From a virus: a stretch of DNA of 21,871 nt. Position numbers and translations under genes: made by a program. Positions within the stretch are counted from its first letter, which is position 1. Every line of letters begins with the position of its first letter. Positions 7,272 to 19,255 of the stretch are shown here, one piece after another. The notes beneath the pieces are model-generated. The model was not told the origin of the DNA and did not search any database. It saw only the letters and a list, made by a program, of their open reading frames with translations. The stretch lies in IMG/VR virus record IMGVR_UViG_3300018414_000016, positions 1 through 21,871 of that record; one strand, 5' to 3'.

Positions 7272-9250
7272 CTAAATAGATGGTACAGGAGATGCTTGTG
7301 TGAGATTTGGGATTACAAACTCTGGTACTGCGCGTTGACGGGCTAACAACATAAATGCGTCAGATGTGGCATCCACTTGGTCATCCCACTTACCGACTTT
7401 GGAACGTTCTCCATCAAAGTATTTAAGTTCGTTAATGAATTCTTCATTCCAGTCGCCTTTAACAATTTTAACATTGCCATTTTCACAAAGAACTGTAAAC
7501 GGTTTAAATCTTGTTAATTTGCTCTTATGGGGATTTGGCGGAATAGTTCTTACATATACTCCGTCTTCGGCAAGAATCTTAGCATAAAATTGGGCAGCTA
7601 CTTTTCCAGATGAGCCTGCGTCAATAGGAATCGCAACAGTGACATTATCTAAGCCATCTCGATATGCTGTGCTGACAATTTCTTTCAACACCCCATCTGG
7701 ACGTTTTTGGAACCTAACTACATCTTCTATATAGTATGTTCCAAGTTTGTCCCTAGACATTTTTACACCTACTGTCCAGTCAGGGCAATAGCTTTCAGTT
7801 CTTTCACCGGCAGCTAAGTCGTAAGCCCTCACTGTAGCTACAGGATTAACAGGAGGATGTTCTACAATTTCACACCATTCTGGCTTCCAGTAAGTAGCTC
7901 CATCGTCTGTTACATGCCAAGAACCTAAATACAAACGATCACGCTCAGATTTTTTCAAGTTTTCCAACCTGTCCACGTATGAAGGATTCAATTGCTTCAT
8001 AATAGGGTTATCAGCAATTGTTGCAGCAATGTAGGTATACGTCTGTGGTTTACACCTGTCTCCAAACAATGATACAAGTTCCTCTTTCGTAGCTGCTGTA
8101 TGAGTTTTACCTTCCATTGTTGCATACCAACGTTCTACTGCAAACATTTCTTTACGAGGAATTCCTGTTTCCATATCAAGATAGGGTTGCACAAACTGAT
8201 ATAAATAAGAGGTTCGTGAAGGGTTAGCTGTACATATCAATTGATGTGGGGCTTTTGCTTTAGAACGAATACGGGATTCTAGGTATTTGATTTGTACTTC
8301 AGAATGCCATTGTGCCTCATCGAAGCAAACGAAGCTGAATTGTCCGCCGTCGAAATTGTTAACGTCCTTGTCTGAGAGGCAGTATTTAAACTGGACTTCA
8401 GCACCAGATGGGAATTTTGCTGTCATCTGAGGATGAGATTTGAATTTTGCACCAAACTGCCTCCACATGGCCTGCGCTTCTTGAAAAAGTCCCGTTATGT
8501 TCAAATAGAGTCGCTACTTTCTATCCCGCTTATTAAGCTGCTTACTATCCCTAGTAAGTCCAGATCATATCATAATCTTTATGATAAAGATTCTCACCGC
8601 TTCCGCCTGCTTAGGCGTACTCCATTTCTGGATGATCGTTTGACGTTCCCACAATTGTTGTGGGCTTCGCTCAGGATTACGTGTTCTACGCTTCCCCTGA
8701 ATTCAATGAGTTATTCGATAGACATCACTGCCTAAAGGGGCTGATTAACTACCCGCTTGACTTAATTGTGTAGAAGTTTGACGAATAAATACTCCTCTAA
8801 AATGAGGGTCATTTACATATTTTAAAATAAGCATTAAAGCTTGGTGAGATTTTCCAGACCCAGCCAATCTCTGGAATCTTCAGAAACAGTCGTTAATTGT
8901 TTCCCGCTAATTAAAGCTGCTATATATCGCTATATAGATGAGGTCATGTCTTCCAGTATTTCTACCTGATTCCCGTTTCCCACCCACTAGGGTAGTACGC
9001 TATTATAGCTGACCGTCACACGTTCCTATTTCTAGGCTTCGCTCGATGTTGTCTCAAAGAGAGTTCCGTCGAATTAGAGAATTGTTTTTAAAGCGGAGGC
9101 ACTGTTTTTACCACCGCCGAATATCACGAAATTACTTTTGCAATTAAGAAAAACCCTATGGGCTTCGCTAGAAGGTGCAAGCACTTTCTTTTCAGCTTTC
9201 GGGGTTTTTCTGATTTTACGTTCTGTTACTGTTTTCTTTTTAAATGGCAT
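7272..9250 (-). CDS. terL: Terminase large subunit, three exons separated by two introns
   Basis: Join of 9250-9110, 8864-8751 and 8492-7272 (47, 38 and 406 codons). The spliced 491-residue protein has the normal TerL length. ATG 9250 follows AAGGAGAATTT. Exon 1 ends FVIFGGG and exon 2 starts AGSGKSHQAL, which together give the Walker A motif GGGAGSGKS (residues 45-53). Exon 2 ends RQTSTQLSQAG and exon 3 continues GLFQEAQAMW. Exon 3 carries Walker B FVCFDEAQ (D143, E144), the coupling-type TANPS, and RNase H-like nuclease residues in AYDLAAGE, DAGSSGK and the late DDQVDATSDAF. TerL is the motor that cuts and packages DNA into the prohead. Without splicing, exon 1 runs into a stop soon after the 5' splice site, and the longest single frame (from a TTG at 8504) lacks the P-loop. 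Splice sites are inferred from protein continuity and intron-end rules. Confidence 0.9.
8493..8750 (-). ncRNA. Group I-like intron 2 of terL, 258 nt, no ORF
   Basis: The upstream exon ends in T (8751, ...GCGGGT) and the intron ends in G (8493), the group I boundary rule. Just inside the intron GCCCCTTT can pair with exon AAGCGGGT, with one C-C mismatch and a U.G pair at the splice site, as expected of P1 and the internal guide. Removal joins QAG to GLFQ in frame. Hairpins visible on the minus strand are CCCACAA-CAA-TTGTGGG (8664-8648), flanked by GAGCGAAG and AACGT; CTTACTA-GGGA-TAGTAAG (8558-8541), a 7-bp stem with a GNRA loop; GCTT-AAT-AAGC; and GATAG/CTATT (8525-8504) closing a loop that ends in GCGACT. 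The full catalytic core was not folded here. Confidence 0.8.
8865..9109 (-). ncRNA. Group I-like intron 1 of terL, 245 nt, no ORF, inside the P-loop codons
   Basis: Exon 1 ends in T (9110, ...GCGGTGGT) and the intron ends in G (8865). Intron bases GCCTCCGC (9100-9093) pair with exon GCGGTGGT with one U-U mismatch and a U.G at the cut. Removal restores GGG-AGSGKS in frame. Hairpins are CCTA-GAAA-TAGG (9036-9025), again between GAGCGAAG and AACGT; CTATATA-GCGA-TATATAG (8937-8920), GNRA loop; GCTTTAATTAGC; and GAAAC/GTTTC (8903-8883) closing a loop ending in ACGACT. These occupy the same relative positions as in intron 2. The intron class is inferred from ends and guide pairing; a covariance-model search would settle it. 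Confidence 0.82.
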
Positions 9251-9321: not shown

Positions 9322-10035
9322 ATGGGAAGTCCATTACAATTAGCTGGACAAAAATTTGGTAGATTACTAGTTATTGAAAGAGGCCAAAAGAAAAATGGAG
9401 CTTACTTATGGCTCTGTCAATGTGATTGTGGAAATATAAAATACATACTTGGTAGCAGTATTAAAGCTGGAACTTCTAAATCTTGTGGATGTTTGCAAAT
9501 CGAAGTGGCTAGAAGCTACAAGAAAGAAAACGCCAGAGGTACTCATCCTTTATACGAGATATATTCAGGAATCAAAGGTCGCTGTTTAAATACAAAAGAC
9601 GACGTATATAATAGATATGGTGGTCGAGGTATCACAATATCTAAAGAATGGCTTGATTCTTTTGAACAATTTGTAGAAGATGTTGGTGAACGCCCTGATA
9701 GCACATACTCTTTAGACAGAATTGATAATAACGGAAATTATTGTAAAGGCAATACTAGATGGGTTAAAGCTGACAAGCAAGCAAGAAACCAAAGAAAATA
9801 CAAGAATAATTCATCAGGAGTAACAGGTGTTAATCTTTTAAAAACTAAACACGGAAATTACTGGACTGCACGAGTCTCTCATCCATTACATGATTATGAA
9901 ATAACAAAATCATTCTCTATAAAGAAATTAGGAAATGATGAAGCTTTTAAACTTGCTTGTGAGCACCGCGAGTATTTAATTAAAATGCTTAACCAAGAAT
10001 TTGACGCGGGTTACTCAGATTCACACGGTAAATAA
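9322..10035 (+). CDS. HNH-type homing endonuclease with zinc ribbon and AP2 domain
   Basis: The 237-residue protein has ATG 9322 behind a full Shine-Dalgarno (AAGGAGGT). An N-terminal zinc ribbon (CQCDCG near residue 33 and SCGCLQ near 55) is followed by YSLDRIDNNGNYCKGNTRWV (about 129-148), the HNH-like core in which the first His of the classical motif is replaced by Arg, then by RNQRKYKNNSSGVTGVNLLK and an AP2-type DNA-binding domain (WTARVSH...KSFSIKKLGNDEAFKLACEHRE). It is a free-standing endonuclease, probably selfish, cutting intron- or gene-less alleles to promote its own spread. It is the immediate neighbour of the intron-split terL on the opposite strand, so it may mobilise those introns; that link is inference. 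Confidence 0.87.
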   Translation: MGSPLQLAGQKFGRLLVIERGQKKNGAYLWLCQCDCGNIKYILGSSIKAGTSKSCGCLQIEVARSYKKENARGTHPLYEIYSGIKGRCLNTKDDVYNRYGGRGITISKEWLDSFEQFVEDVGERPDSTYSLDRIDNNGNYCKGNTRWVKADKQARNQRKYKNNSSGVTGVNLLKTKHGNYWTARVSHPLHDYEITKSFSIKKLGNDEAFKLACEHREYLIKMLNQEFDAGYSDSHGK

Positions 10036-10506: not shown

Positions 10507-10582
10507 TGGCTGAATAGGGTGGGTTTGAACCACCGACCTGATGATTAACAGTCATCTGCTCTGCCAACTGAGCTACTATTCA
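10507..10582 (-). tRNA. tRNA-Asn (anticodon GTT), CCA encoded
   Basis: A complete cloverleaf is read on the minus strand: acceptor TGAATAG/CTATTCA (7 bp); D stem GCTC/GAGC around AGTTGGCA; anticodon stem GATGA/TCATC with loop CTGTTAA, giving anticodon GTT; variable loop AGGTC; T stem GGTGG/CCACC with loop TTCAAAC; discriminator G; then CCA encoded at 10509-10507. It lies ten bases behind the stop codon of the candidate small terminase, so it is probably cut out of that transcript. A complete arm set with no mismatches suggests it is functional. Confidence 0.95.
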
Positions 10583-13861: not shown

Positions 13862-14350
13862 TTATCCGTGATTTGCAAATTCTTTGTGGAGTTCTTCGCG
13901 CTTGGCGCGTACAGCTTCGGCTGCTTGTTCTTTTACACAAAATGAACCTAAATAGTACTGGATACCATTACAGCTTATTTGTGCAACCCATCTGTTATTC
14001 ACTTCGTTGAAATAAACGCCTTTGTATCCTGATTTGTTAGTACTAGGAGTCCTAGTATTTCGAGTATTCTCAAACCTTGTTGCCTCTCTTAAATTAGATA
14101 TACGATTATCTTCTGTATTGTTATTGATATGATCTAACTCATTTTGTGGAAATTCTCCATACACATATAACCATGCAAGCCTATGTGCTTTATAAAGCTT
14201 TCCTTTAGCTAAAATTTCTATATATCTCCTACCCGTTCTCATTTTAGGTGACTTTCCAACCCAGCCATATCTATCAGATTTTATCCAAGTGAATATTCCT
14301 GTGTCTGGATTATAATTTAAAATTTCTTTTAATTCTTCTTGAGTAATCAT
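13862..14350 (-). CDS. HNH endonuclease with AP2 domain
   Basis: The 162-residue protein has ATG 14350 after AAAGGAAACTAA. The N-terminal part (LNYNPDTGIFTWIKS) is the usual start of this family. The HNH core is AHRLAWLYVYGEFPQNELDHINNNTEDNRISNLRE in outline: H near 55, the DH pair near 74, and NNN and NLR following. The linker NKSGYKGVYFNE leads into a short AP2-type domain (RWVAQISCNGIQYYLGSF). It is intact with all classical HNH residues, unlike the homologue at 9322. Likely a free-standing homing endonuclease driven by its own operator-bearing promoter. Confidence 0.9.
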   Translation of the reverse strand: MITQEELKEILNYNPDTGIFTWIKSDRYGWVGKSPKMRTGRRYIEILAKGKLYKAHRLAWLYVYGEFPQNELDHINNNTEDNRISNLREATRFENTRNTRTPSTNKSGYKGVYFNEVNNRWVAQISCNGIQYYLGSFCVKEQAAEAVRAKREELHKEFANHG

Positions 14351-15975: not shown

Positions 15976-17088
15976 ATGCATGTATTAGAATATTTGAAAA
16001 CATATAGTCTTGCAGAACTTACAAATGAGTTCTACATTAAAGTAAAAGATTACCCAGAACACAATCTAGTTGTCTTGAACTACGATCAGATTGAAAGTCC
16101 TAAAGCGCACCCTATTGTCATGGAATGTAGAGGGCTTATTCTTGGTAATGGTGGAGATGGATATTATGTAGTATCTCGAAGCTTTGACCGTTTCTTCAAT
16201 TATGGAGAACAACCTGACACACAAACACACATTGATTTCAGGAAAGCTGCTTGTTATGAGAAGATTGACGGAAGCTTGATTCGTATCTATAATCACAAAG
16301 GTGTTTGGTTTGTAGCCACACGAGGAACAGCTTTTGCTGAGAGTGATGTAAATGGATTTGATATTACTTTTAAGGAATTAGTGTTTAAAGCTTTGGGTGT
16401 ATTTACAGAAGGAGAATTCCAACACAAATGTTATAGTCATTTAGATATGGGTGTGACTTATATTTGTGAGATTGTTTCTCTGGAAAATAGAGTAGTGAAG
16501 CGTTATTCTGGGTACAAACTATATTTTCTAGCAGCAAGGGATAACACAGATTACTCCTTTGTTACAGATCATGAGTACTTTAGTGCTAGAAAGATCGGCA
16601 TGTATTCACCAGATGCTTTCTCATTTGGTTCTGTAGAAGACTGCTTAGAAACTGCAAAACACCTAAAAGACTTAGATGAAGGGTATGTTGTGTATCAAGA
16701 TGGAATTCCTGTATGTAAGATTAAGAGTCCTGCCTATGTTTTAGTCCACGCCATACGTGGAGAAGGATTGAATCCTAAGCGTATTATGCAGATCGTCTTG
16801 ACAGGAGAAACTCCTGAATATTTGACATACTTTCCTGAAGATGAACCGATGTTTACTCCTTATGAGGAAGCTTTAGAACTGCTGAAGCTTGATATAGGTA
16901 ATAAATATTCTGAAACAAAAGAGATTGAAGATCAGAAAACATTCGCTCTATCTGTAAAAGACTATTGCTATTCAAGTGTACTATTCCAGTGCAAAAAGAA
17001 TGGCACACAACCTATGCCAACATTTGAAGCTCAAACAGAACTTTCTAAAATGCGTATGTTGGAACATTATTTAAATAAAGGAGACTGA
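15976..17088 (+). CDS. RNA ligase, T4 Rnl1 family
   Basis: The 370-residue protein (T4 Rnl1 has 374) has ATG 15976 after AAAGGAGAAAAAG. Nucleotidyltransferase motifs are in order: ECRGLIL upstream (about 50-56), motif I EKIDGSLIRIY with the adenylated Lys96, motif III-like YICEIVSLENRVV (about 160), motif IV DEGYVVY (about 236) and motif V VCKIKSPAYV (about 246). It joins 5'-phosphate and 3'-OH RNA ends using ATP. In T4 it works with polynucleotide kinase to repair tRNA cut by host anticodon nucleases; the kinase homologue lies two genes downstream. All key residues are present, so it should be active. Confidence 0.9.
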   Translation: MHVLEYLKTYSLAELTNEFYIKVKDYPEHNLVVLNYDQIESPKAHPIVMECRGLILGNGGDGYYVVSRSFDRFFNYGEQPDTQTHIDFRKAACYEKIDGSLIRIYNHKGVWFVATRGTAFAESDVNGFDITFKELVFKALGVFTEGEFQHKCYSHLDMGVTYICEIVSLENRVVKRYSGYKLYFLAARDNTDYSFVTDHEYFSARKIGMYSPDAFSFGSVEDCLETAKHLKDLDEGYVVYQDGIPVCKIKSPAYVLVHAIRGEGLNPKRIMQIVLTGETPEYLTYFPEDEPMFTPYEEALELLKLDIGNKYSETKEIEDQKTFALSVKDYCYSSVLFQCKKNGTQPMPTFEAQTELSKMRMLEHYLNKGD

Positions 17089-17805: not shown

Positions 17806-18681
17806 TTGAAAGCAATATTGACAATCGGAATATCAGGCTCTGGAAAATCCACATGGGCAAGCTTACAATATAATGAGTTTGATTATGAAATTATCAACAG
17901 GGACAACCTTAGATGGCAAATCTCAGGAACAACTGGTTGGAAAGACTATAAATTTAATAAGAAAATTGAGAAAGCTGTAACTGAAGCTCAAGAAGCTCTT
18001 ATTGTAGAGTGTGCTAAATATGGAAATAACATCATCATAGCTGACACAAACTTGAACCCTGCAACTCGTGAACGTCTTATTAAATTGTGTGAATCTCTAG
18101 GCTTTGAAGTAGAGATTAAAGAGTTTCCAATCACATTGGAAGAAGCTTGGAAGCGAGATCAGTTCAGAGGAGTGTTTAGTGTAGGACGTGATGTTATTTA
18201 CAAGCAGTGGCAACAATGGCTTGATTACAAAGGAGAACGTTATGTACCAGACTTGTCTAAGCCTAAAGCTGCTATATTTGATATTGATGGTACATTAGCG
18301 CACATGGATGGAAAGCGAGGAGCTTTTGAATGGAGTAAAGTTGGAGGAGATTCTTTAGACGCTAATGTACTCCGTATATTGGACGCTTATTTCTCTAGTG
18401 GTTATAAAATTCTAATTGTCTCAGGGAGGGATAACATTTGTAGGGAAGAAACTAAACAATGGCTTTTGGATAAAGATGTAATATATCATCAACTAAATAT
18501 GCGCTCTAAAGGTGACATGCGCAAAGACACAATCGTCAAGAAGGAAATATTTGACATAGACATTGCACCACACTATAATGTTGAAGTTGTGTTTGATGAC
18601 AGACCATCTGTTGTAAGAGGATGGTTGTCGATAGGTATCCCAAAAGTTATATGTGTAGGAGACCCTTATCTTGAATTCTAG
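17806..18681 (+). CDS. Polynucleotide kinase / 3'-phosphatase, T4 Pnk-like
   Basis: The 291-residue protein (T4 Pnk 301) starts with TTG at 17806 behind AAAGGAGAATAAA; no ATG is nearby. The N-terminal kinase has P-loop ILTIGISGSGKSTWA (residues 5-19), IINRDNLRW (about 30-38) and ADTNLNPATRERL (substrate-binding). The C-terminal HAD phosphatase starts at AAIFDIDGTLAHM (about 158-170) with the DxDGT nucleophile, followed by ILIVSGRD and VVFDDRPSVVRGW. It phosphorylates RNA or DNA 5'-OH and removes 3' or 2',3'-cyclic phosphates, preparing ends for the ligase two genes upstream. All signature motifs are intact. The stop is overlapped by the HNH start. Confidence 0.92.
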   Translation: MKAILTIGISGSGKSTWASLQYNEFDYEIINRDNLRWQISGTTGWKDYKFNKKIEKAVTEAQEALIVECAKYGNNIIIADTNLNPATRERLIKLCESLGFEVEIKEFPITLEEAWKRDQFRGVFSVGRDVIYKQWQQWLDYKGERYVPDLSKPKAAIFDIDGTLAHMDGKRGAFEWSKVGGDSLDANVLRILDAYFSSGYKILIVSGRDNICREETKQWLLDKDVIYHQLNMRSKGDMRKDTIVKKEIFDIDIAPHYNVEVVFDDRPSVVRGWLSIGIPKVICVGDPYLEF

Positions 18682-19255
18682 AACTATATATTTCAATGTT
18701 GTAAATGATCTTTTCTATATTGATAATTCAAGTCCAACACTACTAAGATGGAAACAAGACAGATTCGGTAGTAGAAAGATGTGTAGAGTTATAAGGCACA
18801 AAGGAGATATTGCAGGAGGTGTTCAAGATGATGGTTATCATAAAGTACTTGTAAATGGTAAATATCACTCGAATCATAGAGTCTTATATTGTCTCTATAA
18901 TTCTGTTGATTTGGAGTCAAAAGACGTCATAGACCATGTAGATGGTGATACTTTTAATAACGCATCAGATAATCTAAGAATTGTTGATAGAAAACTAAAT
19001 TCTAGAAATAGGGTAATGCCTTCAAATAATGTATCAGGAGTTGTCGGTGTTCATTGGCAATACTCTGGTACGAATAAATATGCTGTAGCTAGTTGGTATG
19101 TTGATAACGTACTATGTAGGAAGAGGTTTTCAGTGACAAAACTTGGAGAAGACGAAGCATTTAGATTAGCTTGTGAATGTCGATATAAAATGGTTACTGA
19201 AATTGGAAGTTACACGGATAGGCACGGAAAGGAGAAGAATTTATGCACAAACTGA
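18671..19255 (+). CDS. HNH endonuclease with AP2 domain, wedged in the RNA-repair operon
   Basis: The 194-residue protein starts with TTG at 18671, nine bases after AGGAG, inside the last codons of the kinase; the next Met would remove the conserved N-terminus (LFYIDNSSPTLLRWK). The HNH core is NHRVLYCLYN (about 68-77), then DVIDHVDGDTFNNASDNLRI (about 84-103), with DH, N and NLR residues in place. An AP2-type domain follows (NNVSGVVGVHWQ...WYVDNVLCRKRFSVTKLGEDEAFRLACE). Its tail ...HGKEKN contains the ribosome site of the next gene. It is clearly a homologue of the proteins at 9322 and 13862 and probably invaded the operon between kinase and nucleotidyltransferase genes. Confidence 0.87.
   Translation: MNSRTIYFNVVNDLFYIDNSSPTLLRWKQDRFGSRKMCRVIRHKGDIAGGVQDDGYHKVLVNGKYHSNHRVLYCLYNSVDLESKDVIDHVDGDTFNNASDNLRIVDRKLNSRNRVMPSNNVSGVVGVHWQYSGTNKYAVASWYVDNVLCRKRFSVTKLGEDEAFRLACECRYKMVTEIGSYTDRHGKEKNLCTN

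Follow-up and report, generated by a model that had tools for sequence, protein, structure and literature searches.

The terL Gene and Its Predicted Spliced Product

The window analysed here, 21,871 bases long, is the whole of one IMG/VR virus record, which is probably a genome fragment. Its large terminase gene, terL, lies on the minus strand from 9250 to 7272 in three pieces separated by two inserts, one at 9109-8865 (245 nt) and the other at 8750-8493 (258 nt). Exon 1 (9110..9250, minus strand) has 47 codons and ends with the GGG of the Walker A motif GGG/AGSGKS, where the slash marks the point of insertion. Exon 2 (8751..8864, minus strand) is 114 nt long, and its 38 codons run from AGSGKSHQ to SQAG. 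Exon 3 (7272..8492, minus strand) supplies 406 codons and the stop, and holds the Walker B motif FDEA at about 8316-8330 and the nuclease motif DDQVDAT at about 7368-7385, both on the minus strand. At the first joint, the reading frame passes from ...TTC GGC GGT GGT to GCT GGG TCT GGA AAA TCT, and at the second from CAA GCG GGT to GGA CTT TTT.

When both inserts are removed, the result is a 491-aa TerL with GGGAGSGKS and SQAGGLFQEAQ in frame. This protein matches PHROG 979 (TerL) with E = 1e-156 and also matches Pfam Terminase_6N/6C. Against a 473-position TerL profile built from 194 sequences, the spliced TerL of the window among them, it scores 581.9 bits in one stretch that is gap-free at both joints; the unspliced pieces score 496, 43 and 13 bits. 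A relative with 55% identity (L003) encodes an uninterrupted TerL, reading GGGAGCGKTHQ and TSTQLSQAGGLFQEAQ with no inserts at either place. By the profile match and by this relative, the coordinates, the junctions and the 491-aa length proposed in the earlier note are exact to the base.

Identification of the Inserts as Group I Introns

Intron 1 (8865..9109, minus strand, 245 nt) has the sequence limits AAAAACAGTG...GAGATTG and is located inside the Walker A codons in phase 0. Intron 2 (8493..8750, minus strand, 258 nt) has the limits AGTTAATC...ATAACG and falls between the two Gly codons of SQAG/GLFQ, also in phase 0. Neither contains an ORF. Both have stops in all frames, so that neither is the in-frame open insert that an intein would be, and the unspliced message runs into a stop 11 codons into intron 1.

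The earlier note read the inserts as ORF-less introns and suggested searching them with the Rfam group I models. In that search, RF00028 gave 52.1 bits for intron 2, above the 50-bit cut-off, and 29.8 bits for intron 1 (E 1.5e-5 in 851 nt), below it. A second covariance model, R1, was built from 15 other Walker A introns with the window sequences left out. R1 has exactly two matches in the window, and these are the two inserts: intron 1 with 120.7 bits (E 5.1e-37, match at 9109-8891) and intron 2 with 84.2 bits (E 1.5e-25, match at 8735-8513). Since R1 matches both, we consider their group I identity settled. Judged from their sequences, they are almost certainly ORF-less group I introns and are predicted to be self-splicing. 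The original reading is therefore upheld by Rfam for intron 2, more weakly by Rfam for intron 1, and by R1 for both.

The core pairing was assessed in an alignment of 18 introns, comprising 16 others and the window's two. Of its pair cells, 94.2% are standard, against 34-45% when the partners are slid, and both-sided changes occur in 38 of the 42 pairs. The P3 and P7 pseudoknot is paired in all 18 introns, with both-sided compensatory changes. In intron 1, the 5' strand of P3, ATTCTC (9077..9082, minus strand), pairs with GGGAAT at 8969-8974, and the 5' strand of P7, GGTCA (9010..9014, minus strand), pairs with TGACC at 8942-8946 to form the pseudoknot with P3. In intron 2, the 5' strand of P7 is GATCA (8633..8637, minus strand), pairing with TGATC at 8563-8567. 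Throughout the aligned set, the 5' strand of P7 is separated from the 3' strand of P3 by two hairpins (helices 6 and 7). Such a pair of hairpins is the mark of subgroup IA, and both window introns fit that subgroup by layout.

The splice sites also have the expected form. Each intron follows a U and ends in G, and each has an internal guide with a U.G at the cut, all of which the earlier note had picked out. The guide of intron 1, GCCTCCGCT (9092..9100, minus strand), forms P1 with the end of exon 1 at 9110-9118, pairing at 8 of 9 positions with one U-U mismatch, and this P1 is also the local minimum-energy fold. The CAGU at 9101..9104 (minus strand), read from the sequence, pairs with GCUG of the 3' exon at 8861-8864 as P10. 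The guide of intron 2, GCCCCTTT (8734..8741, minus strand), forms P1 with the end of exon 2 at 8751-8758, pairing at 7 of 8 positions with one C-C mismatch. On folding a 71-nt piece, this P1 is not favoured, and the P10 of intron 2 is weak.

In the pre-mRNA, each intron would fold into a P3-P9 ribozyme core. The internal guide would then pair with the last bases of the 5' exon, placing the U.G at the cut, and free guanosine would attack, after which the exons would be joined into a single mRNA for the 491-aa terminase. We infer splicing from the in-frame restoration, the core pairing and the homology, together with the demonstration in ICP1 of splicing at the same boundary (PMC10448857).

A different account would have terL decaying or naturally split, with the inserts retained and the pieces made separately or never. 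There is an in-frame TTG for exon 3 just inside intron 2 (8504), and an unspliced insertion has a precedent in NrdA of phage Aeh1, according to a passage of PMC7344957 that cites the Aeh1 work. Set against this, the 38-codon exon 2 holds the Walker A lysine, and separate subunits could form no P-loop. In addition, no stop or frameshift occurs in any of the three exons, the catalytic motifs are intact, and the core pairing is complete in both introns. The earlier note pointed out that a full-length terL elsewhere in the genome would make this copy a pseudogene; the TerL profile finds no second TerL in the 21.9-kb record, itself probably a genome fragment. We regard a split or decaying gene as very improbable and treat the locus as a terL predicted to be spliced from three exons.

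Walker A Introns and Inteins in Other terL Genes

More than 200 TerL loci were collected in four scans of viral contigs and a phage collection, and their interruptions were located by a profile census. The interruptions cluster at Walker A, at Walker B, at a motif near profile position 233 and at the nuclease motif near 440. Besides the window's, there are 18 distinct Walker A introns. Sixteen are ORF-less with exact boundaries and are 212-268 nt long; one (L045) is 775 nt with an HNH gene inside; and one (L125) is placed by the covariance model only, so that its boundary is not set. They are distributed over four adjacent codon boundaries: GG/AAG, GGA/AG or GGG/AG, GGAA/G, and GGAAG/S. Intron 1 belongs with this group, being at a codon boundary of GG[AG]AGxGK[ST] in a TerL of the same family, and intron 2 lies elsewhere. 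At the intron 2 site (profile position 71/72), the window's terL is the only one of the set of more than 200 to be interrupted.

A splice-site search requiring U before the intron and G at its end found an in-frame solution for each Walker A intron, and in all of them the guide makes at least 5 base pairs, with G opposite the cut-site U. In codons for Gly and Ala, U can occur only at the third position, so the final U would be expected to force phase 0 in Walker A. The U-ending Gly and Ala codons (GGU, GCU) also present a conserved, G-rich guide target, which may account for the location of intron 1 in the Walker A codons.

The phase bears on another possible outcome of splicing. If the 5' site of intron 1 were joined to the 3' site of intron 2, the 38 codons of exon 2 would be skipped, giving an in-frame terminase without a P-loop, possibly a regulator. 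The 114-nt length of exon 2 and the phase 0 of both introns would permit this, and exon skipping yields the dominant variant of the split terL of SIOphi (PMC11878797). Phase 0 is, however, explained by the U-ending Gly codons. We think such skipping unlikely, if less so than retention of the inserts, and keep to the 491-aa terminase as the expected product.

The survey also turned up Walker A introns that are absent from annotation or missed by searching. In the Rheinheimera Barba phages, terL has an unannotated Walker A intron (L017 1680-2034); the annotated gene begins inside exon 2, the short first exon having been missed. More than 100 Rheinheimera phage records in the phage collection match this TerL. 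At E 0.1, RF00028 gives no match to the ICP1 or Barba introns (L018 1739-2000 and L017 1764-2000). Two further observations concern other records. The terL of the SP6-like phages K1E and phD2B (L307, L308), which belongs to a different TerL family, is interrupted by an insert containing an endonuclease gene, and in DNA sequence a portion of this insert is similar to the intron 1 core. Several records labelled "UNVERIFIED Campylobacter phage" (L020, L024 and others) have a terL typical of Escherichia Justusliebigvirus and Vequintavirus, and their host label looks doubtful.

Inteins in the P-loop of TerL are well described (Kelley et al. 2016, PMC5050341). They resemble the Walker A introns in being self-splicing parasites of the same nine terL codons, but they are excised from the protein rather than the RNA and are unrelated to group I introns. 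Our loci include Walker A inteins in L002 (185-2305), L015, L125, L127, L145-L147, L149, L150 and L156. L002 has a small intein at GK/T, the arall type has small inteins before SGKS, and the larger ones at GK/S have an endonuclease domain. In L125 (3571-5050; IMG/VR 3300010218_000006), the Walker A motif apparently carries a group I intron, with 78.4 bits against R1, and a full LAGLIDADG-type intein sits a few codons beyond it in the same motif.

Origins of the Two Introns

A phylogeny of 51 introns pairs intron 1 with L123's Walker A intron as its sister (support 100/96) and places intron 2 in a group with the introns found in a DNA polymerase gene (L009) and a primase-helicase gene (L010), with support 97/94. 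The L123 intron (IMG/VR contig 3300046821_000062) is the nearest to intron 1, with 75% identity and the same Walker A boundary; in that terL, the intron 2 site is empty. The best explanation is that the window's two introns were acquired independently of each other. Descent as tandem copies was considered and set aside, the best tree separating the two, with the AU test of the pair as sisters not rejecting that arrangement (p 0.10). Also dropped was the idea that the kin of intron 2 in the JSF38 primase-helicase might likewise be in a Walker A motif, which is absent from the translated flanks.

The Walker A introns as a whole make up several lineages on the best tree, with five changes, of which the supported branches force at least three; a single clade of all Walker A introns is not rejected by the AU test (p 0.12). 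Mapped on the TerL tree, which has 146 rows, the presence of a Walker A intron requires 11 changes, and we therefore take these introns to have been gained or lost often.

The Adjoining HNH Gene and Possible Intron Mobility

A free-standing HNH endonuclease gene (9322..10035, plus strand; PHROG 374, E 1.3e-67) is next to exon 1. It is divergent from terL, with the two start codons 71 bp apart, and belongs to a common family, with 415 candidate homologues in viral contigs. The window thus has a free-standing homing endonuclease gene adjoining an intron-bearing terL, an arrangement that suggests collaborative homing, of which psbA in cyanophage is an example. The same process has been proposed for terL of ICP1 (Barth et al. 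2023, PMC10448857).

Beside terL, both T5orf172 and HNH endonucleases occur, the latter in at least three kinds. Directly upstream of terL, a T5orf172 gene is present in ICP1, L226, L105 and L151, a PHROG 374 HNH in L047 (and in L049 and L111, where the assignment is made from resemblance to the HNH of the window), a PHROG 99 HNH in L108 and another HNH in L107. These genes run with terL, whereas the window's HNH is divergent. An endonuclease gene within 600 nt upstream of terL is seen in 10 of 17 intron clusters versus 8 of the 99 clusters that have no intron (Fisher p 6e-6); the upstream screen missed the endonuclease of L107, and counting it brings the intron clusters to 11. When relatedness is taken into account, the independent pairs number 3.7 for the link between endonuclease and intron and 1.5 against it, with a median p of 0.63. 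Since the tree-aware pairs do not uphold the link, we keep it as an inference.

Alternatively, both introns may be immobile remnants passed down together with terL, the HNH gene having some other target. Consistent with this, both are without an ORF, the tree-aware test is not significant, and endonuclease genes also lie beside terL genes that are intron-less (L048, L051, L055, L100-L102). On the other hand, the 11 changes on the TerL tree and the location of the nearest kin of intron 2 in other genes speak against simple inheritance. We hold immobility to be a serious possibility, somewhat short of probable. Collaborative homing is in our view the most plausible route for intron 1, which probably spreads into intron-less terL by homing, with the neighbouring HNH cutting in trans. 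The HNH gene is accordingly named only as a candidate mobiliser, and that this particular enzyme does the homing is a suggestion we make tentatively.

Several other genes of the window deserve mention. Two further HNH/AP2 endonuclease genes (PHROG 99) are at 13862-14350 (minus strand) and 18671-19255 (plus strand), making three in 22 kb. A T4-type RNA ligase (15976-17088, plus strand) and a polynucleotide kinase/phosphatase (17806-18681, plus strand) lie close together as an RNA repair pair. Between terL and genes on the opposite strand there is a tRNA-Asn (GTT) at 10507-10582 (minus strand).

Comparison with Known Systems

That phages carry introns in terL, as the earlier note stated, is already on record (PMC10448857, PMC3606486, PMC11878797). 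The closest published parallel to intron 1 is in Vibrio phage ICP1, where splicing was established by RNA-seq and RT-PCR and an endonuclease gene is adjacent (PMC10448857). The ICP1 intron is also ORF-less and at the same Walker A boundary (GGA/AGGGKS versus GGG/AGSGKS in the window), has the group I core pairing in our alignment and a P10 identical to that of intron 1, and has its endonuclease gene outside the intron, next to exon 1. It differs in being the single intron of its terL, in having a T5orf172 endonuclease on the same strand as terL, and in falling on another branch of the intron tree.

Other phages have split terL genes with the interruptions elsewhere. The terL of rV5 is in three segments (PMC3606486), and splicing of the terL intron has been shown in CB7 (PMC7344957). 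The TerL proteins of rV5 (V5) and other Vequintavirus, CB7 and phiTE are homologous to that of the window and match the same profile, and V5 likewise has two introns; their insertions, however, fall at Walker B (about profile position 130) and at a motif farther along (about 233), and some of the introns have an internal HNH or endonuclease VII gene. In the Bastillevirinae, terL can have two or three group I introns, for which self-splicing has been shown, along with the exon skipping in SIOphi (PMC11878797). These resemble the window in having terL split by multiple group I introns, but their TerL is of another family (PHROG 675), and four listed terL introns contain a nuclease gene.

The earlier note called it unusual to find two introns so close together in terL, one of them in the P-loop codons. 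Part of this holds: the 114-nt exon between the introns is uncommon, as is the intron 2 site, which is unseen in the other terL genes examined. The remainder has precedent in the 18 further Walker A introns, in the ICP1 intron at the same boundary, and in published terL genes with multiple introns.

Implications

The window introns are well supported as a new example of a known parasite, since the same kind of element is found at the same spot in other phages, and they extend a known phenomenon by one clean case with two introns. On the practical side, the short first exon is overlooked by annotators, as happened in the Barba phages, and some Walker A introns escape the Rfam model. We offer as a working view, which we think somewhat less likely than not, that the Walker A codons may be a standing entry point for unrelated introns, at four boundaries, and for inteins, that free-standing endonucleases beside terL may move the ORF-less introns, and that the divergent HNH may drive intron 1. 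Together with the 18 further introns, the locus marks the ATP-binding codons of the terminase as a repeated target of both RNA and protein parasites. It provides a natural test bed for deciding whether endonuclease targets or the guide needs of the ribozyme determine where introns are located.
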